Source of the DNA: Thermoplasmata archaeon
GTDB lineage: Archaea > Thermoplasmatota > Thermoplasmata > Lutacidiplasmatales > UBA184
Assembly: GCA_022750335.1 (NCBI GenBank)
Contig: JAKIVX010000009.1
Location: 1-37,003 of the forward strand
Reading direction: 5' to 3'
DNA length: 37,003 bases
A program made the translations under genes and the position numbers. Under the pieces are notes generated by a model. The model did no database searches, was not told where the DNA came from, and saw only the letters and a list, made by a program, of their open reading frames with translations. Shown here piece by piece: positions 10,812-34,153 of this stretch. Position 1 is the first letter of the stretch. Each line of letters starts with the position of its first letter.

Positions 10812-11489
10812 ATGGCGGAGTCGGTCGTGGTGGGCGAGGACGTCTGGAAGGTGTATGGGAAGGGGGACACGGAGGTCGACGCCCTGCGCGGACTCTCGGT
10901 CGAGATCCGACGGGGGGAAATGGTAGCGGTGATGGGACCCTCCGGTTGTGGCAAGACGACCTTCTTGAATTGTTTCTCCGGGCTGGACTCCGTTTCGCGC
11001 GGGCGCGTTCTGGTGGGGGGCGTGGACGTCCATGCGATGCCCGACGCCCAACGCAGCGAGTTCCGAGCGAAGCAGACCGGATTCGTGTTCCAGGCGTACA
11101 ACCTGCTTCCGGTGCTGAGCGCGGTCGAGAACGTCGAGATGCCCTTGCTGATCGCCGGTGCCCGATCGAAGGATGCGCGCCGGCGTGCGAGTGAGATGCT
11201 GGGAGAGTTGGGTCTCGGGGACCGCCTCGACCACCGTCCGTCCGAACTCTCGGGTGGACAGCAGCAGCGCGTCTCCCTGGCGCGCGCTCTGGTGGCGCGG
11301 CCGGCCATCGTCTGGGCGGACGAACCCACCGGCAATCTCGATGACGAAGGCTCCCGCCAGGTGACGTCGCTCCTCCGCACGCTCAACCATGACTTCGGGC
11401 AGACGATGGTCGTCGTGACCCACGACTCGGAGGTCGCGGGCGCCTGCGACCGGATCTTGAAGATGCGCGACGGACGGTTTCACCCCTGA
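10812..11489 (+). CDS. ABC transporter ATP-binding protein, MacB/LolD type
   Basis: All nucleotide-binding motifs are intact in this 225-residue protein: Walker A GPSGCGKTT (42-50), Q-loop Gln94, signature LSGGQQQRVSLARAL (146-160), Walker B with WADEPTGNLD (168-177), and the switch His in VVVTHDSEVAG. The spacing and the NLLPVLSAVENVEMPL segment are typical of the MacB/LolD/FtsE branch, which drives FtsX-like permeases. It powers the permease encoded 15 bp downstream. A gggag ribosome binding site lies 7 bases before the ATG. Confidence 0.95.
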   Translation: MAESVVVGEDVWKVYGKGDTEVDALRGLSVEIRRGEMVAVMGPSGCGKTTFLNCFSGLDSVSRGRVLVGGVDVHAMPDAQRSEFRAKQTGFVFQAYNLLPVLSAVENVEMPLLIAGARSKDARRRASEMLGELGLGDRLDHRPSELSGGQQQRVSLARALVARPAIVWADEPTGNLDDEGSRQVTSLLRTLNHDFGQTMVVVTHDSEVAGACDRILKMRDGRFHP

Positions 11490-11504
11490 ACGGACGCGAC
11501 CGAC

Positions 11505-14459
11505 ATGGCGGACCCGACCGTTTTCACCGCTCTCCTGATCCTTGCGATCGTCGGGGTCGCGTCGCTCGCGTTTGCCGCCCGCCACCGCCTGCCGTTCCGC
11601 ATCGCGATGCGCAATGTCCGGCGCGGGCGGGGCCGCACAGTCCTGCTCATCCTGGGTCTCCTGGTCGGCACGACCATCATCTCGGGAAGCCTCATCGTCG
11701 GGTCGACGGTCCAGGCGCTGGACGTCCACTACACCTATCTCGGGGGAGGATACGTGCACGAGTCGGTCTCCGCCCTCGCGCCCTCCGGCGGATACGCCCC
11801 CTACCCCTACTCGGTATACTCCTCCCTCGCGGAAGCGGCGGCGGGGCGGAGCGATATCGCCGGAATCACTCCCATGATCCTGAGCACGACGCAGGTCTAC
11901 GATCGGACCACGGGCATCCCCGAAACCAACCTCAACCTCCTGGCGTCGAACGCGAACCAGAGCGCGAACCTAGGACCTTTCGTGTCGACGACCGGGAGCG
12001 TCGTGCCGGGCCCGGTGGGAGAGGTGGTCTATGTGGACGTCCAGACGGCCGTGGCACTCAACGCCTCGGTCGGAGACCAGGTCGTCGTCTACGGACCTCA
12101 CCCCATCGACGCCACGATCGGGGCGATCGTCCAGGACGACACGCGGGGAGGGGCGCTCACCGCCGGCCTGTCTCCCGGCAACGTCTTCGTCGACCTCCCT
12201 ACCGGTCAATCGCTCGAGAACCTCTCCGGCCAGATCAACTTCATCGCCGTGACGAACGTCGGCTCCCAGGCCGGCGGGATCGCCCTCACCACCCAGGTCA
12301 GCGCCTTCCTGAACACGACCCTGGCGACGATCCCCTCGGCGGCGGGACTCTCCGTGCAGGAGCCACTCAAGGATAGCGTCGCGGCCGCTGAACTAGCCGG
12401 AAGCAGCATCCAGACGATCTTCCTCGTACTGGGCCTGTTCTCCATCGTGGCGGGGGCGATGCTGATTGTCGGCATCTTCGTGATGCTCGCGGAGGAGCGC
12501 AAAGGCGAGATGGGGATGCTGCGCGCGGTCGGAATGCGTCGCGGGGAACTCGTGTTCGTCTACTACTTCGAGGGTCTCGTCTACGCGGTCGGCAGCGCCC
12601 TGGCGGGCACCGTGCTCGGGGTGCTCGTCGGTTATCTCCTCACGTACACGTTCAGCCTCCTCTTTGCGTCGGGCGCCCTGACCTCGGGGGCGATCCTCCA
12701 GTCGTTCACGGTCACACCGGATGACCTGCTGATCAGCTACGTGGCGGGGTTCCTGCTCACGCTCGTCACCGTCGCGGCGGCGAGCGCTCGGGTCAGCCGC
12801 CTCAACATCGTGGAGGCGATCCGCGACCTACCGTCCCCGCCGCCTCCCGTGCGGCTGTACACGGTCCTAGGGTACCTGGGAGCGGTCCTCGCCGTGCTCG
12901 GGCTCCTCCTGCTGGTCCCCAACGCCCAAGGCACGTCGGACATCTCCATCCCCATCCTCGGCGGCGGGTTCGTCATCCTCGGCCTCGGCCTGGTCGCCTC
13001 GCGGTTCGTGCGGAACCGGATCGCCTTCAGCGCGATCGGGGTCGCCCTGCTCATCTGGGCGGGGGCGGAGCCGGTCCACCGACTCGTCCTCGGAACCGCC
13101 CACACCGGCGGGATCTTCATCGTGTTCGTCGAGGGGATCTTCATGGTCGGCGGCGCGCTGCTCCTCTACGTCTTCAACTCTGCCACGATCCTGGGGGCGC
13201 TCCTCCGTCTCGCCGGTCGGGGCTCCCGGGGAGCCCCGGTCGCTCGGGTCGGCCTCTCTTACCCGGCCCGCCGCCCCGCGCGCACGGCGATCAACCTCAC
13301 CATCTTCGCCCTCGTCACGTTCACGATGGTCGCCATCGCGTGCTTCGGAGCGACCATCCAGGCGAACCTCAACAATACCATCCAAACGGAGACTGGGGGG
13401 TACAGCTTCTTCGGGTTCTCCACCCAACCGATCCCCGACCTCCCCGGTGATGTGGCCAACAATTCGACGTTGGCCGCGCTCTTCACGGTCGCCGTTCCGC
13501 TCATCTCCGGGAGCGTCGAGGTCAACGTGAGCGGTTCCACTCCGAACCCGTATACAGACAATATCTTCGCGGCCCCCGTGAACCAGTCCCCCGATTCGAG
13601 TTTCTATGCGACGAGCCAGTTTCCGTTCACGGCCACCTGGGACGGCCTCTCGAGCAGTCAGGTGCTGGCCGATCTCGAGACCAACCGTTCGGTGGCGATC
13701 GTCGACCAGAACTACGCTCCCTCGACCTCCTCCGTCTCCGGCGGCTCGGGCGCGCCGCACCCGACGCTCCAGGTCGGGGACTTCCTCCGGCTAAATCCCC
13801 CGGGAAGCTCCGCGGAGATCCCCGTCCGCGTGATCGGGATCATGTCCCAAAGCGTGATCACCGGGGTCTGGGTGAACCCCGCCGCCGCGGCGTCCTTAGG
13901 GTACACCGGCGTCAGCGCCTACCTCCTCACGGTCCGCCCCGGCGTCTCCACGACCCTCGCGGCCCAGGACGCGAAGCGCGCCTTCTTCCCGGAGGGGCTG
14001 GTGTTATTCGAGATCGCCCAGATCCTCGAGAGCTCGATCGCCTCGACGGAGGGGATCATCGGTCTGCTCGAGATCTTCGTCGGCCTCGGTCTCGGGGTCG
14101 GGATCGCCGCGATGGGCATTCTCGCGTTGCGCGCCGTGGTCGAGCGCCGTCGCGAGATCGGGATGCTTCGGTCGATGGGGTTCACCGAGCGGAAGGTGCT
14201 CACCGCGTTTGTGCTGGAGTACTCCTTCATCACGCTCCTGGGTCTCGGGATCGGAACCACCCTCGGGATCTGGATCGTCTACGACCTGTCCATCAGTCCG
14301 AGCGCGGCCGCTTCCGGAGTCTCGTTCTTCGCGGTCCCGGTCGAGAACATCGCGCTCATCCTCCTCGCGGCCTACGGCCTCGCGATGCTCGCGATCGCCG
14401 TTCCGTCCGTCCGTGCATCGCACATCCCTCCCGCGGATGCGGTACGGTCGACGGAGTGA
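11505..14459 (+). CDS. ABC transporter permease with two FtsX domains
   Basis: The 984-residue membrane protein has N-terminal hydrophobic segments (about 5-25 and 45-68), a large Ser/Thr/Gly-rich extracytoplasmic domain, then a first FtsX domain (three TM, about 300-440, with the EERKGEMGMLRAVGMRRGEL loop), further TM helices, a second outside domain and a second FtsX domain near the end (VERRREIGMLRSMGFTERKV at about 882-901). This duplicated form is usual in archaea and Actinobacteria, where such transporters export or extract envelope molecules; the substrate is unknown. The ATG lies 15 bp after the ATPase stop, so the two form one operon. Confidence 0.93.
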   Translation: MADPTVFTALLILAIVGVASLAFAARHRLPFRIAMRNVRRGRGRTVLLILGLLVGTTIISGSLIVGSTVQALDVHYTYLGGGYVHESVSALAPSGGYAPYPYSVYSSLAEAAAGRSDIAGITPMILSTTQVYDRTTGIPETNLNLLASNANQSANLGPFVSTTGSVVPGPVGEVVYVDVQTAVALNASVGDQVVVYGPHPIDATIGAIVQDDTRGGALTAGLSPGNVFVDLPTGQSLENLSGQINFIAVTNVGSQAGGIALTTQVSAFLNTTLATIPSAAGLSVQEPLKDSVAAAELAGSSIQTIFLVLGLFSIVAGAMLIVGIFVMLAEERKGEMGMLRAVGMRRGELVFVYYFEGLVYAVGSALAGTVLGVLVGYLLTYTFSLLFASGALTSGAILQSFTVTPDDLLISYVAGFLLTLVTVAAASARVSRLNIVEAIRDLPSPPPPVRLYTVLGYLGAVLAVLGLLLLVPNAQGTSDISIPILGGGFVILGLGLVASRFVRNRIAFSAIGVALLIWAGAEPVHRLVLGTAHTGGIFIVFVEGIFMVGGALLLYVFNSATILGALLRLAGRGSRGAPVARVGLSYPARRPARTAINLTIFALVTFTMVAIACFGATIQANLNNTIQTETGGYSFFGFSTQPIPDLPGDVANNSTLAALFTVAVPLISGSVEVNVSGSTPNPYTDNIFAAPVNQSPDSSFYATSQFPFTATWDGLSSSQVLADLETNRSVAIVDQNYAPSTSSVSGGSGAPHPTLQVGDFLRLNPPGSSAEIPVRVIGIMSQSVITGVWVNPAAAASLGYTGVSAYLLTVRPGVSTTLAAQDAKRAFFPEGLVLFEIAQILESSIASTEGIIGLLEIFVGLGLGVGIAAMGILALRAVVERRREIGMLRSMGFTERKVLTAFVLEYSFITLLGLGIGTTLGIWIVYDLSISPSAAASGVSFFAVPVENIALILLAAYGLAMLAIAVPSVRASHIPPADAVRSTE

Positions 14460-16964: not shown

Positions 16965-17633
16965 ATGACGGCCCTCCGCGAGATCGATGCCGCGATCGAA
17001 CGTCGCCACCTGCTGAAGCACCCGTTCTACACCGCCTGGTCGAAGGGGGAGCTGCCGATGGAAACGTTGCGCGAGTATGCCGGACAGTACTTCCACTTCG
17101 AAGCCAACTTCCCGAGGTACGTCGCGGGGGCCTATGCTCGACTGCAACGGCCCGAGGACCGGCGAGTACTCCTCGAGAACCTAACCGACGAGGAGGGGCG
17201 ATCCCCGACTCACCCCGAGCTGTGGGTGGATTTCGCGCGTGCGGTCGGAGCGCGATGGAATGCGCGCCGCCCTCCGCCGCCGCGACCCGGCGCGCTGGGC
17301 CTGTGCCGGACCTACGAGGCCCTGACGATGGGGCGCGGCTCCCCTGCCCAGGCCCTGGGAGCGTTGTACGCCTACGAACGACAGTTCCCGGCCGTCGCGG
17401 CCGAGAAATCTCGTGGCCTGCGCGCGAACTACGGGCTGACCTCGACGCCGGCGCACGAGTTCTTCCGGGTGCACACTACCGCGGACGTCGCCCACTCCGC
17501 GGCGGAACGCAAGATCCTCGCGCACGAGCTGCGCACGGAAGCGCCCGGAGACGGCGGCGCGACCGAGGCGGTCGAGAAGACGCTCGGAGCCTGGTGGTCG
17601 TTCCTCGACTCGTTCGGGGTCGGGCAGCCGTAA
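16965..17633 (+). CDS. CADD-family (heme-oxygenase-like di-iron) protein, candidate p-aminobenzoate synthase
   Basis: The 222-residue protein matches the CADD folate-metabolism family of the TenA/PqqC fold. Its residues line up with those of Chlamydia CADD: Tyr22 (HPFYTAW, the sacrificed Tyr27), Tyr38 (Tyr43), metal ligands Glu76 and His83 (Glu81, His88), Tyr137-Glu138 (Tyr141-Glu142), Lys148 (Lys152), and His170, Asp174, His177 (His174, Asp178, His181), with constant offsets of five and then four. Family members make p-aminobenzoate from one of their own tyrosines using a metal pair and oxygen, for folate; in archaea the product could serve tetrahydrofolate or methanopterin. The assignment is from motif memory, not a search. 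The gene diverges from the NmrA-like gene and converges on the sedolisin gene 9 bp away. Confidence 0.85.
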   Translation: MTALREIDAAIERRHLLKHPFYTAWSKGELPMETLREYAGQYFHFEANFPRYVAGAYARLQRPEDRRVLLENLTDEEGRSPTHPELWVDFARAVGARWNARRPPPPRPGALGLCRTYEALTMGRGSPAQALGALYAYERQFPAVAAEKSRGLRANYGLTSTPAHEFFRVHTTADVAHSAAERKILAHELRTEAPGDGGATEAVEKTLGAWWSFLDSFGVGQP

Positions 17634-17642
17634 CCGGGACGA

Positions 17643-19208
17643 TCAGCCGGGCGAGGGCGGACCTCGCAGGGCCATCAGAAGCTTGGTCCCGTCCGGAGTC
17701 CCCCAACCCGTGCACGCGTCCCATCCGGGTCCGGCCGAGTAGCCATCGTTGTTTCCGGAGGTGATGTCGTGACAGGTCTCGGACACCCCCGGGCGGTAGA
17801 GGATGGGATTGAAGAACCCCAGAGGCGCGCCTCGAGCTTGGATGCACCGGGCGACGAGTCCTGCCCAGAGCGGGGCCACGGCACTCGTACCTCCGTAGAC
17901 CGCCTCCGTCCCGTCGACTTGGACGGCATACCCGGTCGCGGGGTCTGCGTTCCCGGCCACGTCCGGAACGCCCCGACCCGAGCTTCCGTTGGGGGCCGCG
18001 GGGACCGGGGGCGTGGATTGGTACGGTGGAAGGGGAAAGTCTTCGCTGACCCCGCCCCCGGTAGCGCCCTCCCCCCCGGCGAGGTCGTTCCAGACGACTT
18101 CGGAGGAGATGGTCGTGCCGTCGAGGACGAGTGTCGTACCCCCGCAGGCCAGCACGTACGGGCTGGACGCGGGGAAGTCGACAACGAGCGGTCCCCCTTC
18201 GACCCCGTCGGACGCGCCCCCGTCTCCGGCGGCCACCAGGACCGTCACTCCCATCACGGCTGCGTCCGCGCAGACAGAATTGAGGGCCGATCGGGCCTGC
18301 GCCGTCCAGGACGGCTCCGGTCCACCCCAGCTGATCGAGATGACGTCGGGGTGGTGGACCGTATCGTGGAGCGCGGCGGAGAGGCCGTCAAGGAATCCCG
18401 CGTCCGTGTTCGGTGCGAAGTAGGCGACGAGGGACGCGCCGGAGGCCACTGAACCTGCCACTTCGAGGTCCAGCTGGACCTCCCCGTCGGGCCCCGAAGG
18501 ATCTCCGGTCGGCAGGTTCTTGGCCCCGTCGACGGAGACCGCCACGATGGTCGGGGGAACGAACCCCTGCCCGCGGAAGTAGGCTTCCATCTCGGCGTCG
18601 GAAAAACCCCCGCCTAGTTCGAGAAACCCGATTGACACGCCCGTTCCCTCCACCCCCGGTGGGAAGGCGTAGGCAGCCGCCACTTGCGCGGGAGGGTAGA
18701 CCCGGTCGGTAGCGGCGGGCGTGCGACGCCGGCGAAAGTGCGTCTGCGCCTGGGGACGATCGTCGAGCCCGAACACCCCGACCACGACCTGGTCCAACTC
18801 CGAAGGGATCTGGATCGGTCCCGTCCGCCCGCGGTAAGTACCGTCCGAGTACGCCCAGCGTTCTAGGGCGATGCCGAACGCCTGCTCGAACCGCTCGACG
18901 GTACCGGCCAGCCGCACGAGTCGTGGGCCCACCGCTTCCGAACGCACTTCCAACTGGCTCCGGAGGGCGAACTCGCGCACGCGCGCGAGATCGTCCGGAT
19001 GGGCTCCGTGCGTCTCGGCGAACTCCTCCCGCGAGAGACGGCGGGGGAAGGGAGACGGCGGGGAGGCGAGTTCGGTGAGGGCAGGATACGGCGAGCGGTC
19101 CGTTCGCCGACGGACCAAGACGGTCACTTCGAGACGACCCTCCGCCCGCGGTTGCCCGACCGAACGCGCGCCCGGAAGTGGGCTTCGCTCGCTGCCCGGA
19201 AGCTCCAT
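17643..19208 (-). CDS. Kumamolisin-like sedolisin (S53 serine-carboxyl peptidase)
   Basis: The 521-residue precursor has an S53 pro-domain (about 25-160) and a catalytic domain from about 165. The catalytic residues are all present: Glu243 and Asp247 (DGEVQLDLEVAG), Asp329 (oxyanion Asp, AAGDGGASDG), and Ser442 in GGTSAVAPLWAG. SISWGGPE (291-298) and the Ca-binding DITSGNNDGY...GWDACTGWG end are also standard. It is strikingly like kumamolisin of acid-loving Bacillales, which also lacks a typical signal peptide; none is seen here. The family acts at acid pH. It lies 26 bp after amt on the same strand and that gap contains a perfect 14-bp palindrome. Transfer between bacteria and archaea is plausible (inference). 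Confidence 0.95.
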   Translation of the reverse strand: MELPGSERSPLPGARSVGQPRAEGRLEVTVLVRRRTDRSPYPALTELASPPSPFPRRLSREEFAETHGAHPDDLARVREFALRSQLEVRSEAVGPRLVRLAGTVERFEQAFGIALERWAYSDGTYRGRTGPIQIPSELDQVVVGVFGLDDRPQAQTHFRRRRTPAATDRVYPPAQVAAAYAFPPGVEGTGVSIGFLELGGGFSDAEMEAYFRGQGFVPPTIVAVSVDGAKNLPTGDPSGPDGEVQLDLEVAGSVASGASLVAYFAPNTDAGFLDGLSAALHDTVHHPDVISISWGGPEPSWTAQARSALNSVCADAAVMGVTVLVAAGDGGASDGVEGGPLVVDFPASSPYVLACGGTTLVLDGTTISSEVVWNDLAGGEGATGGGVSEDFPLPPYQSTPPVPAAPNGSSGRGVPDVAGNADPATGYAVQVDGTEAVYGGTSAVAPLWAGLVARCIQARGAPLGFFNPILYRPGVSETCHDITSGNNDGYSAGPGWDACTGWGTPDGTKLLMALRGPPSPG

Positions 19209-19234: not shown

Positions 19235-20551
19235 CTAGGTAGCGGTGTCCTCCAGCCGGGTCGCCGTGACTCCGCCTAGACCACGGCTGATGATGTGGAT
19301 CGCGACGAACGAGATCACGAAGACGACGGCGAACACCGCGAGGATCCCGAGCACTTCGACTCCCAGTTGGTGGATCGCGCTCGCTCCGCCTCCGAACAGA
19401 AGCCCGTTCGGCAGGTTAGGAAAACCGGAGCCCACAGCGAACTGGGTCTGTGCGAAGAAGGCGATCATGACGACCCCGAAGAGCCCTCCGACCAAATGCC
19501 CCGGGAGCAGCCCGACGGGGTCGGCGAACCAATGGCGTTGGCTGAAGTACTGTTCCGCGGCGAGGAAGAGCGGCCCGCCGAGCAGGCCCAAGACGATCGC
19601 GCTTCCCGGGCTCACGAAACCGGCGAGGGGAGTGATGATGATGAGGCCCATGAGGACCCCGTTCACCGACGTCAGGAGCGGGGACCCTTGCCGCGAAGCG
19701 GGAAGGAGGCGGGAGAAGCCGAGCGTGCTCAGTGAGGCCGAGCCCGCGGCCAGGAAGGTCGTCAGCACCACGACGATCGTCTCGTCGTTGAATTGGAGCA
19801 CGCTACCCGGATTGAAGCCGAACCAACCGACCCAGAGCAAGAGGATCGCGAGCGTGAGCCAACCGGGGTTCACCCGGATCGGCGTTTGAGGGCTCGAGAC
19901 GTTCCCCCGGGCTTTCTCCTCCCGCCAGATCTGGTACAGCACGGCCAGGCCAGCGGCGCCCGCGGCTCCGTGCACCACAAGGCCCCCTGCAAAATCGACC
20001 ATGCCCATCTGCGCGAGCCATCCCTGGGGGTTCCAGATCCACGCCGCTGGCAGGTCCCAGATGAGGGCGAAGTATACGATCGAAAAGAGGACGATCGCCC
20101 CGAGCTTGAGCTTGCGAAGGAATACGACCCCCACGAGGGCCAAGGTAACGGCAGCGAACGCGGTCTCGAACAGGAAGTAGGTGCCGGTCGTCAGCCCGGT
20201 GCCGGTCTGCGACCACCAGGTGTCGACCACCGGATTGGCCGAGGAGGATGTGAAACCACCCAGGAAGAACCCCGGGCCGTAGAATGGGTTGCCGATCAGG
20301 CCGTGCCAGGTGGGCGCGAACGCGACGTTGAAACCGACGGCGGCCATGACGACTAACGCGAGGCCGGTCATGAGTACCGTCTTGAGCAGGCTGAACGACA
20401 ACGACTCGCTGAGCTCGCCGACCTCGAGTAGGCCGACTGCGATCGTCATCGTGAAGACGAGGAGGGCGGCGAGGAGGACCCATAGATTGTTAATCGTCGG
20501 GGTCGGTACGATCACGTTGGTTCGGACTTGCCTCCGGCGTCGTCCGGGCAC
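19235..20551 (-). CDS. amt: Ammonium transporter Amt
   Basis: The 438-residue protein has about 11 TM helices and the Amt/Rh/MEP signatures: the pore twin histidines are His194 (DFAGGLVVHGAAGAAGL, with Asp186 before it) and His352 (DPVGLLPGHLVGGLFG). The segment WLTLAILLLWVGWFGFNPGS (231-250) is the usual family motif. It conducts ammonium into the cell. The start used is a GTG at 20551; a second GTG 12 codons later is possible. A ctaagtacc box lies ~45 nt upstream, so a short leader is expected. No GlnK gene is next to it, which is unusual for archaeal amt. It is followed 26 bp later by the sedolisin gene, suggesting cotranscription and a link between protein breakdown and nitrogen uptake. 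Confidence 0.95.
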   Translation of the reverse strand: MPGRRRRQVRTNVIVPTPTINNLWVLLAALLVFTMTIAVGLLEVGELSESLSFSLLKTVLMTGLALVVMAAVGFNVAFAPTWHGLIGNPFYGPGFFLGGFTSSSANPVVDTWWSQTGTGLTTGTYFLFETAFAAVTLALVGVVFLRKLKLGAIVLFSIVYFALIWDLPAAWIWNPQGWLAQMGMVDFAGGLVVHGAAGAAGLAVLYQIWREEKARGNVSSPQTPIRVNPGWLTLAILLLWVGWFGFNPGSVLQFNDETIVVVLTTFLAAGSASLSTLGFSRLLPASRQGSPLLTSVNGVLMGLIIITPLAGFVSPGSAIVLGLLGGPLFLAAEQYFSQRHWFADPVGLLPGHLVGGLFGVVMIAFFAQTQFAVGSGFPNLPNGLLFGGGASAIHQLGVEVLGILAVFAVVFVISFVAIHIISRGLGGVTATRLEDTAT

Positions 20552-20591
20552 TCCGGCTCTCGAATCACCGTTCGAAAAAGCTCTCGGAAGG

Positions 20592-20600
20592 GGTACTTAG
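20592..20600 (-). promoter_or_regulatory. Promoter box (ctaagtacc) of amt
   Basis: On the minus strand ctaagtacc lies 41-49 nt upstream of the GTG at 20551, giving a predicted leader of ~20 nt. It is nearly the same as the boxes before the M29-like and GNAT genes. Confidence 0.5.
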
Positions 20601-20674
20601 CCGTTCACCTCGAACGGCAGGTCGGAACGGGGGGGACTCCGCGACGGAGGGAGCGAGCGGGGCCGCGACGACAA

Positions 20675-20682
20675 CGATAAGC
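20675..20682 (+). promoter_or_regulatory. Promoter box (cgataagc) of the NDH-2 gene
   Basis: The box is centred 28 nt before the ATG at 20706; no Shine-Dalgarno is present. Confidence 0.55.
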
Positions 20683-20705
20683 GACCGCCGGCTCCGGCCT
20701 CCGGC

Positions 20706-21911
20706 ATGGCAACGCCGGTGAACGACTCCGGTGCGGGGCCCGTCGTCATCCTGGGGGCTGGATACGCCGGCCTCACGGTCGCCCGTGAAGTGGCTCGACG
20801 TGCACGGGGTCGGCTGCCACTGGTCCTAGTCGACCGAAATCCGGTCCACGTCCTCCGTACCGAACTGTACGAGATCGGGAAGATCGCGGCCGCTGCCGGC
20901 GACCCCCGCCCCTGGACTGTGCCGCTAGCGAAAGTCCTCGACCGGACGGGAACGACCCTTCGGCAGGGCTCGGTCGAGTCGATCGACCTCGATCGGCGAA
21001 CGGTTCGCTTGGATTCGGGCGAGGAGATCCGGTACGGGTTTCTCGTGATCGCGCTCGGGAGCGTGGCCGCCTACTACGGCGTGCCAGGGGCGGCGGAGAA
21101 CACGTACAACGTGTACCGACTCTCCGGTGCCCAACGCCTCGCCGCGGTCGTGCGCGACACGGAGCGCGCGTCGGCTGGTCTGCCCGGAGAACGTCGCCCG
21201 AGGTTCGTGATCGTGGGCGGCGGCTCGACAGGAACCGAGCTCGCGGCCGAGCTCGCCACGACCGACTGGGAACAGATCTCCGGACCCGGAGCGAGACCTC
21301 CGGACGTCATCCTCGTGACCGGTGCCCTCCCGTTCCTCGCTGGGTTCCCGCCCAAGCTGATCGTCCACGCCCGAGAGCTGCTCCGACGTGCGGGGGTCTC
21401 CCTCGTCCATGGGGTGAACGTGTCGCACGTCGACCCGGGGAAGGTGACCCTCGAGGATGGGTCGGTCCTCGCGTGCGATGCGGCCGTTTGGTGCGCGGGC
21501 CTGGAGGCGCCAGCGGTCGCCAAAACCCTCGCGGTCCCCCATGGGAAAGGGGGTCGGATCGCGGTCGAGCCCACGCTCGCGCTTCCCAACCACCCCACGG
21601 TCTTTGCCCTCGGCGACGTCGCAGAGATCCGCGATCCCTCCACGGGCCTCCTCGTCCCCGCGACCGCCCAAGCGGCCCTCGCGGAGGCCCGGACGGCGGG
21701 CCGGAACATCGTCGCCCGCTTCGAAGGACGGGTCTTGGAGCCGTTCCGATTTCGAGAACGCGGGGTCGTGGTGGCCCTCGGACTCGGTACGGCCGCGGGT
21801 ACCCTCGGAAGGGCTACGATCTGGGGGAGCCCGGCCGCGCTCTTGAAGCGGTTGGTGGAACGCGAGTATTCTCGGGCGGCCGAGAAGGGACAGGAATCGC
21901 GGCTCCTCTAG
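20706..21911 (+). CDS. Type II NADH dehydrogenase-like FAD oxidoreductase
   Basis: The 401-residue flavoprotein has two dinucleotide folds: the FAD-binding GAGYAG (17-22, after VVIL) and a second NAD(P)H-binding GGGSTGTELAAELA at about 170. The conserved FAD contacts LVIALGSVAAYYGVPGA (about 113-129) and TVFALGDVAEI (about 300-310) are present. It belongs to the NDH-2/sulfide:quinone reductase family; the Cys pair of sulfide:quinone reductases is not seen, so NADH:quinone oxidation at the membrane face is more likely. A C-terminal helix (SPAALLKRLVEREYSRAAEK) could attach it to the membrane. Transcription appears leaderless from a cgataagc box. The sugar nucleotidyltransferase gene follows 58 bp later with its own box. 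Confidence 0.9.
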   Translation: MATPVNDSGAGPVVILGAGYAGLTVAREVARRARGRLPLVLVDRNPVHVLRTELYEIGKIAAAAGDPRPWTVPLAKVLDRTGTTLRQGSVESIDLDRRTVRLDSGEEIRYGFLVIALGSVAAYYGVPGAAENTYNVYRLSGAQRLAAVVRDTERASAGLPGERRPRFVIVGGGSTGTELAAELATTDWEQISGPGARPPDVILVTGALPFLAGFPPKLIVHARELLRRAGVSLVHGVNVSHVDPGKVTLEDGSVLACDAAVWCAGLEAPAVAKTLAVPHGKGGRIAVEPTLALPNHPTVFALGDVAEIRDPSTGLLVPATAQAALAEARTAGRNIVARFEGRVLEPFRFRERGVVVALGLGTAAGTLGRATIWGSPAALLKRLVEREYSRAAEKGQESRLL

Positions 21912-32737: not shown

Positions 32738-34012
32738 TTACCCAATGATGTCGGCGGAGGAAGCCGAGCCCGACGCCGGAGTGACCGGGGGATGCTCGAG
32801 GTCACGCGGCCGGGTGGGGGACGCTTCGAGCCGGTCGCGCAGGTGCGGGATCGAGTACGACTGGCCCGAACCAGTGTTGTAGAGGAGGACGGTCTCCCCG
32901 GGCCGCAGGTCTCCGCGCCGCATCAAGGGGCCGAGAGCGGCGTAGGGGGCCGCTCCTTCGGGGGACACGGAGATCCCTTCCCGTCGAGCCAGAACTTCCA
33001 TAGCGTCCACTAGGTCGATGTCGCGGACGACCACCCCTCCCCCACGGCTCGCTCGAACGGCCTCCAAGATCCGCTCGGAAGCGAACGGAGCGGGAACCAG
33101 AAGTCCGGGGGCGATGGTGGAAGGATGCTCCCACGGCTCCGCGGTCGGAGCTCCGCTCTCCAAGGCACGGACGACCGGAGCACATCCGATGGCCTGGATC
33201 GCGTATAGGCGGGGCATACGCTCCAGAAGCCCGAGCTCGCGGAGCTCGGTGAACGCCTTGTACATCCCGAGCAAACCGGTTCCACCCCCCGTGGGATAGA
33301 GGATGGCGTCGGGCAATTCCCCCACCGGGGACTGCTCGAAGATCTCGAGTCCCATGGTCTTCTTTCCTTCCACTCGGTACGGTTCCCGAAGGGTCGACAT
33401 GTCGAACGACCCTCGTCCGATTTCGGAGCTCCGAGCGACCGCTCCGGCCTCACGGATCGTCCCCGGTACGGCCATCACTTCCGCCCCGTACCTTCGGCAC
33501 ATTTCCTGCACGGATCGGGCCGTCCGGTCCGGCAGGTAGACCCGTACTCTCCTCGAGGCGCGAGCCCCATACGCCGCGAGAGCGACCCCGGCATTTCCCG
33601 CGCTGGGCACGTACAGGTCCGTGAGTCCAAGTTCGTGCGCTCGACTGACGGCGACCGTCATGCCCCGTGCTTTGAAGGAACCAGTGGGGAGTAGCCCATC
33701 ATCCTTGAGCTTCAGTCGGAGTCCGGGGGCTGCCGCCGCCTCGGTCAGGGAGAGGATGGGCGAGAATCCTTCGCCCAACGAGGCGATCATGGACGAGGAG
33801 CGAACCGGAAGCAGTTCCCGGTATCGCCACAGCGTGGACGAACGTCCATCGAGTTTCGAGCGCCAACTGTGCCCGTCGAGCTGATCCAGGTCGTACCGCG
33901 CGAGCAGAGTGTGGCCACAGGTCGGACAAGGCCCGACCGGGTGCGAGGCGTCGACCTCGGAGCAACAGGCCCGGCACTCGAGCATCGTCAGGAGAGAACC
34001 GGTCTCAGCCAC
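32738..34012 (-). CDS. Threonine synthase family PLP enzyme with N-terminal zinc ribbon
   Basis: The 424-residue protein starts with a rubredoxin-like zinc ribbon (Cys13, 16, 29, 32), then has the fold-type II PLP core: LPTGSFKARG with Lys114 binding PLP, SAGNAGVALAAYG (substrate-binding SxGN loop), and the phosphate-binding PTGGGTGLLG. This arrangement is typical of archaeal threonine synthases, which convert O-phosphohomoserine to threonine, though related enzymes act on other substrates. The GTG at 34012 is chosen because ggtgg lies three bases before it; ATG 33985 would also keep the ribbon. No other threonine genes are adjacent. It is divergent from the unknown gene at 34154. Confidence 0.88.
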   Translation of the reverse strand: MAETGSLLTMLECRACCSEVDASHPVGPCPTCGHTLLARYDLDQLDGHSWRSKLDGRSSTLWRYRELLPVRSSSMIASLGEGFSPILSLTEAAAAPGLRLKLKDDGLLPTGSFKARGMTVAVSRAHELGLTDLYVPSAGNAGVALAAYGARASRRVRVYLPDRTARSVQEMCRRYGAEVMAVPGTIREAGAVARSSEIGRGSFDMSTLREPYRVEGKKTMGLEIFEQSPVGELPDAILYPTGGGTGLLGMYKAFTELRELGLLERMPRLYAIQAIGCAPVVRALESGAPTAEPWEHPSTIAPGLLVPAPFASERILEAVRASRGGGVVVRDIDLVDAMEVLARREGISVSPEGAAPYAALGPLMRRGDLRPGETVLLYNTGSGQSYSIPHLRDRLEASPTRPRDLEHPPVTPASGSASSADIIG

Positions 34013-34153
34013 GGACCCACCGAGCCCGCGTCCGGAAGTCGGTCGAACGCTCCATCGGGCGACCACCGCTAGGCGCGAGGCGACGTAACCTCTTCCCCCG
34101 GAACGGTCCCGGCACATCCCAACCCTCATCTTGCAGGGGGTCTGGACTTGGCC

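Follow-up and report, generated by a model that had tools for sequence, protein, structure and literature searches.

The window analysed here, a stretch of 37,003 nucleotides, is contig C34 of an archaeal genome assembly of 1.6 Mb that is 72% complete. The source genome belongs to Ca. Lutacidiplasmatales, mostly aerobic archaea of acid soil, in an account from which folate is absent (PMC9287336). The genome collection names Thermoplasmata MAGs as relatives of this genome. The open reading frame of interest stands alone at its locus, with the end of a peptidase gene nine bases downstream. Both flanking genes lie outside the system.

16965..17633, + strand: gene for a probable CADD/PabS-type self-sacrificing p-aminobenzoate (pABA) synthase, ATG start, 222 aa
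15959..16843, - strand: gene for an NmrA-like NAD(P)-binding protein (Pfam PF05368), divergent upstream neighbour
17643..19208, - strand: gene for a pro-kumamolisin/S53-type peptidase (Pfam PF09286), convergent downstream neighbour

Elsewhere in the window are an ABC transporter ATPase gene followed by an FtsX-type permease gene, 984 aa (10812-14459), an ammonium transporter gene that adjoins a gene for a kumamolisin-type peptidase, followed further on by an NAD(P)H dehydrogenase-like flavoprotein (19235-21911), and a threonine synthase gene (32738-34129; NF006050, 433.6 bits, above cut-off). Among the CADD loci compared there was no synteny with folate genes; no neighbour recurs in more than 14 loci, and the only family common to all of them is CADD itself, together with its antisense frame.

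Family, fold and active site

The sequence-only reading had taken the protein for an archaeal CADD homologue, and this holds. The CADD family profile TIGR04305 matched with 191.9 bits (E 1e-56), a little short of its curated cut-off of 200 and far above the scores obtained with PqqC (TIGR02111, 25.6 bits) and BesC (NF042919, 30.5 bits), neither of which reached its cut-off (240 and 500, respectively). With TIGR04305, the orthologues from 30 congeners gave 200-225 bits; they share 54-63% identity with the window protein. In Pfam, Haem_oxygenas_2 scored 101.7 bits vs 56 bits for TENA_THI-4. The nearest solved structures by sequence were those of CT610/CADD (1rcw/8va9, E about 1e-36), and the 4-aminobenzoate synthase 9pj4 was matched at E 8e-33. 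An AlphaFold2 model generated from 45 native sequences had a pLDDT of 94.3. The structural comparison that had been proposed placed this model on CADD of Chlamydia trachomatis, the top Foldseek match (TM 0.91, rmsd 1.8 A, E 1.5e-13), and on neither PqqC (TM 0.75, 4.2 A) nor TenA (E about 5e-5 or weaker); the value for BesC was TM 0.73.

Ten residues had been named as having CADD counterparts at one constant offset. All ten are present and all are matched in the alignment, but the offset changes from 5 to 4 between the first half of the protein and the second. Y22, Y38, E76, H83 and Y137 align with Y27, Y43, E81, H88 and Y141 of CADD, and E138, K148, H170, D174 and H177 with E142, K152, H174, D178 and H181. 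The counterparts in NePabS are, in the same order, Y25, Y41, E88, H95 and F148, and E149, K159, H181, D185 and H188. Tyr22 and Lys148, whose placement had been singled out for scrutiny, coincide with the sacrificed Tyr/Lys pair, and both are invariant in the 45-row alignment. The ten residues all fall among the 32 invariant columns of that alignment (222 positions); the chance of ten random columns all being invariant is about 1e-9. In the following list the counts refer to 48 orthologues of the genus, two of which are fragments without the N-terminal part, hence the denominator of 46 at some positions.

17028..17030, + strand: Tyr22, predicted sacrificed tyrosine (CADD Tyr27, NePabS Tyr25), in 46/46 genus orthologues covering the position
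17076..17078, + strand: Tyr38, equivalent of the essential NePabS Tyr41, in 45/46
17088..17090, + strand: Tyr42, candidate radical-relay residue (NePabS Tyr45), in 46/46
17190..17213, + strand: Glu76 and His83, metal ligands (encoded by the two end codons of this stretch), invariant in the 45-row alignment
17223..17225, + strand: Trp87, candidate radical-relay residue (NePabS Trp99), in 48/48
17373..17378, + strand: Tyr137 (metal-side tyrosine, CADD Tyr141) and Glu138 (metal ligand), in 48/48
17406..17408, + strand: Lys148, predicted amine donor (CADD Lys152, NePabS Lys159), in 47/48
17460..17462, + strand: Phe166, metal-selectivity position (CADD Tyr170, NePabS Phe177), Phe in 48/48
17472..17495, + strand: His170, Asp174 and His177, metal ligands (H-x3-D-x2-H), invariant in the 45-row alignment

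The sole exception at Lys148 in the genus is a Met in the degenerate copy of genome G019. The dimetal ligands (E76, H83, E138, H170, D174 and H177) form a set of three His and three carboxylates, invariant in the 45-row alignment. In NePabS, Tyr25, Tyr41 and Lys159 are essential, Tyr45 and Trp99 are helpful, two O atoms come from O2, and the choice of metal is governed by positions 148 and 177; its F148Y variant uses Fe/Fe and Mn/Fe about equally (PMC11965152). The archaeal Tyr137/Phe166 pair equals the F148Y state of NePabS, which predicts a cambialistic or an Fe/Fe enzyme.

The same genomes contain a second HDO paralogue (C22:171979-172542 in the own genome; L111:16369-17106, - strand), scoring 70 bits with TIGR04305 and 61.6 bits with PqqC. 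It keeps all six metal ligands, but Tyr22 is replaced by Phe, Lys148 by Leu, Tyr38 by Trp and Tyr137 by Ser. Because a paralogue with the complete ligand set has other residues at these four positions, their conservation in the CADD-type protein is not a consequence of the fold alone. The second paralogue heads a shikimate cluster (ADH synthase, AroB', AroDE, a kinase, AroA and AroC), and its distance to aroC is alike in many congeners.

Distribution, pABA demand and chorismate enzymes

CADD was found in 49 of the 61 genomes of the genus (46 intact copies, two contig-edge fragments and one degenerate copy), compared with the 48.7 expected for a universal gene given the completeness of the assemblies. 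At E <1e-25 it occurred, among 390 genomes of the phylum, only in three genera of this family and in the distant genome G305. The G305 copy (L174:4990-5679) is above the TIGR04305 cut-off; a quick tree, with sparse bacterial sampling and weak deep branches, places it among bacterial sequences. The closest bacterial relatives, about 40% identical, are from Acidobacteria, Actinobacteria, Melainabacteria and Chlorobiales. It is likely that CADD came by transfer from bacteria, perhaps in two events. Contamination was ruled out as the origin of the gene, as dozens of independent MAGs carry CADD and the separate copy of G305 is located close to an IF5A-type gene. Transfer by plasmid was also considered and dropped, no close plasmid copies having been found.

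The dihydropteroate synthase (DHPS) of the own genome is of the folate type (TIGR01496, 305.6 bits; cut-off 162.6), and the 61 genomes of the genus all lack MptG, which makes folate the likely sink for pABA. The product had earlier been described as the precursor of a pterin cofactor; as far as folate is meant this holds as the most likely fate, and methanopterin is less likely. COX1 of cytochrome oxidase scored above its cut-off in 55 of the 61 genomes, and O2 is therefore plausibly available.

The own genome has a single chorismate-binding gene, which is TrpE-like and lies inside an aro/trp cluster beside the single full-scoring TrpG/trpG. A search for PabABC, suggested at the outset, found no such route in this genome, an absence that, at 72% completeness, rests largely on the relatives. 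In the congeners, too, the usual sole chorismate-binding enzyme is TrpE-like. No chorismate-binding enzyme was found in 19 CADD-bearing congeners, nor in G182, G379 or G305; DHPS is present in G018, G038, G051, G182, G379 and G305, all of them genomes without such an enzyme. In G018, with a completeness of 94%, the aro cluster is unbroken and has no trpE or trpG; asd is followed by a trpF-like gene and then by a tRNA endonuclease gene. That trpF-like (PRAI) gene has been kept after asd (L191:1906-3698), with trpE and trpG missing from the aro/trp cluster. Most congeners without a chorismate-binding gene retain chorismate synthase and are probably still able to make aromatic amino acids. In most of the genus CADD is the only recognisable candidate source of pABA.

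Four genomes of the family carry a PabB-PabA fusion gene followed by a PabC-like gene: two within the genus (G019 and G030) and two outside it (G193 and G447). In none of the four was an intact CADD found. The copy in G019 (97% complete) is degenerate, with the changes K148M, H83C, D174G and Y38F. The Fisher p for PabBA vs intact CADD was 0.043 within the genus and 0.004 across the family sample, values uncorrected for shared descent and incompleteness. The loci in two congeners without intact CADD are:

L112:4259-9350, - strand: PabB-PabA fusion and PabC-like gene
L113:78-3406, + strand: PabB-PabA fusion and PabC-like gene

The motif in these fusions is PIAGT, not PIKGT. The use of Lys or Ala in P-x-[KA]-GT as a discriminator between PabB and TrpE was dropped, since a haloarchaeal protein with a PabB annotation carries PIAGT as well. 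The fused proteins were named from the best scores of their single domains, from matches in the PDB, from annotated relatives in haloarchaea and from the aminotransferase next to them, which make a good case, though not proof, that they are PabBA. DHPS and TrpE occur together with neither CADD nor PabBA in G022 and G059 (genus, both >90% complete) and in G136, G277, G346 and G374 (family). As these six genomes keep DHPS without either route, the group must have a further source of pABA or salvage it.

Proposed reaction and alternatives

We consider it very probable that the gene encodes an O2-dependent self-sacrificing pABA synthase of the CADD/NePabS kind that supplies folate. This reading draws on the observed homology, fold and conserved residues, on the presence of DHPS and of a terminal oxidase, on PabABC not having been found, and on biochemical work on the equivalent residues of NePabS and CADD (PMC11965152); the chemistry would be that of the two characterised enzymes by orthology, and the choice of metal (Fe/Fe, or either) is predicted in the same way. 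The dimetal centre, held by Glu76, His83, Glu138, His170, Asp174 and His177, would activate O2. The oxidising equivalent would pass to Tyr22 via aromatic residues, for which Tyr137, Trp87, Tyr42 and Tyr38 are candidates. The side chain of Tyr22 would then be cleaved off to become the ring of pABA, leaving Gly behind; the carboxylate oxygens would come from O2 and the amine from Lys148. Each protein molecule would thus yield at most one pABA, which dihydropteroate synthase would use for folate.

The protein may make pABA and yet be accessory, the main supply coming from a methanogen-like early branch of the shikimate pathway or from uptake. In methanogens, an ADH-synthase/AroB'-type pathway is the presumed origin of the pABA branch. 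A pathway of this type is present here, and the relatives that have DHPS and lack both CADD and PabBA fit such a supply. However, the gene is kept in the genus at the frequency of a universal gene, and G019, where it has decayed, carries a PabBA-PabC operon, which makes an accessory role rather improbable. It is very unlikely that the protein is an HDO-family oxidase with another substrate, BesC-, PqqC- or UndA-like, and resembles CADD in looks only. The fold and the metal ligands are indeed common to the superfamily, and 191.9 bits is slightly below the TIGR04305 cut-off. Against this, the sacrificed Tyr, the Lys and the relay aromatics are invariant, where the true paralogue keeps the metal ligands only; structure and sequence scores are far closer to CADD, and the pattern of presence agrees with pABA supply. 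That TrpE-TrpG doubles as aminodeoxychorismate synthase and a class IV aminotransferase as PabC, leaving CADD some other role, is scarcely credible, for although many genomes have trpEG and one or two PF01063 genes, a chorismate-binding enzyme is missing from the 19 CADD-bearing congeners as well as from G182, G379 and G305, and those of them tested keep DHPS.

Beyond self-sacrificing synthesis by this one protein, we lean, on balance, towards the wider view that in the archaeal family Ca. Lutacidiplasmatales most de novo pABA for folate comes from the suicide enzyme, on which the family depends, including those members that have lost all chorismate-binding enzymes, and that the enzyme and the PabBA-PabC operon have been swapped more than once, with a decayed CADD left in one lineage. 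With an archaeal branch, the CADD/PabS family would reach into another domain. Such a branch would also provide about 50 diverse natural variants for work on the mechanism, among them a fixed Tyr/Phe metal-selectivity state and a null variant decayed in nature. It would further show circumstances under which an enzyme of one turnover is retained: folate synthesis is freed from PabB at the price of O2 and one protein per pABA.

Comparison with known systems

CADD and NePabS, the two characterised enzymes, both come from bacteria, and only bacteria are named in the survey that accompanies the work on NePabS (PMC11965152). No report of an archaeal self-sacrificing pABA synthase was found in the literature searched, subscription papers not being searchable. 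The archaeal protein shares with CADD/CT610 of Chlamydia trachomatis (1rcw, 8va9) the fold (TM 0.91), the metal ligands, the sacrificed Tyr and Lys, and a Tyr at the position of Tyr141. It differs in having Phe166 in place of Tyr170 and is about 33-35% identical; the gene is unlinked to folate genes, and its host is an archaeon. There is no ground for expecting a part in host apoptosis. With NePabS (NE1434 of Nitrosomonas europaea) it has in common all the ligands, the equivalents of Tyr25, Tyr41, Tyr45, Trp99 and Lys159, and Phe at position 177, but it has Tyr137 where NePabS has Phe148. The second HDO paralogue is alike in superfamily and in its six metal ligands and lacks the sacrificial Tyr/Lys. 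PqqC, BesC and TenA share the heme-oxygenase-like fold, but their sequence and structure scores are far lower than those of CADD.
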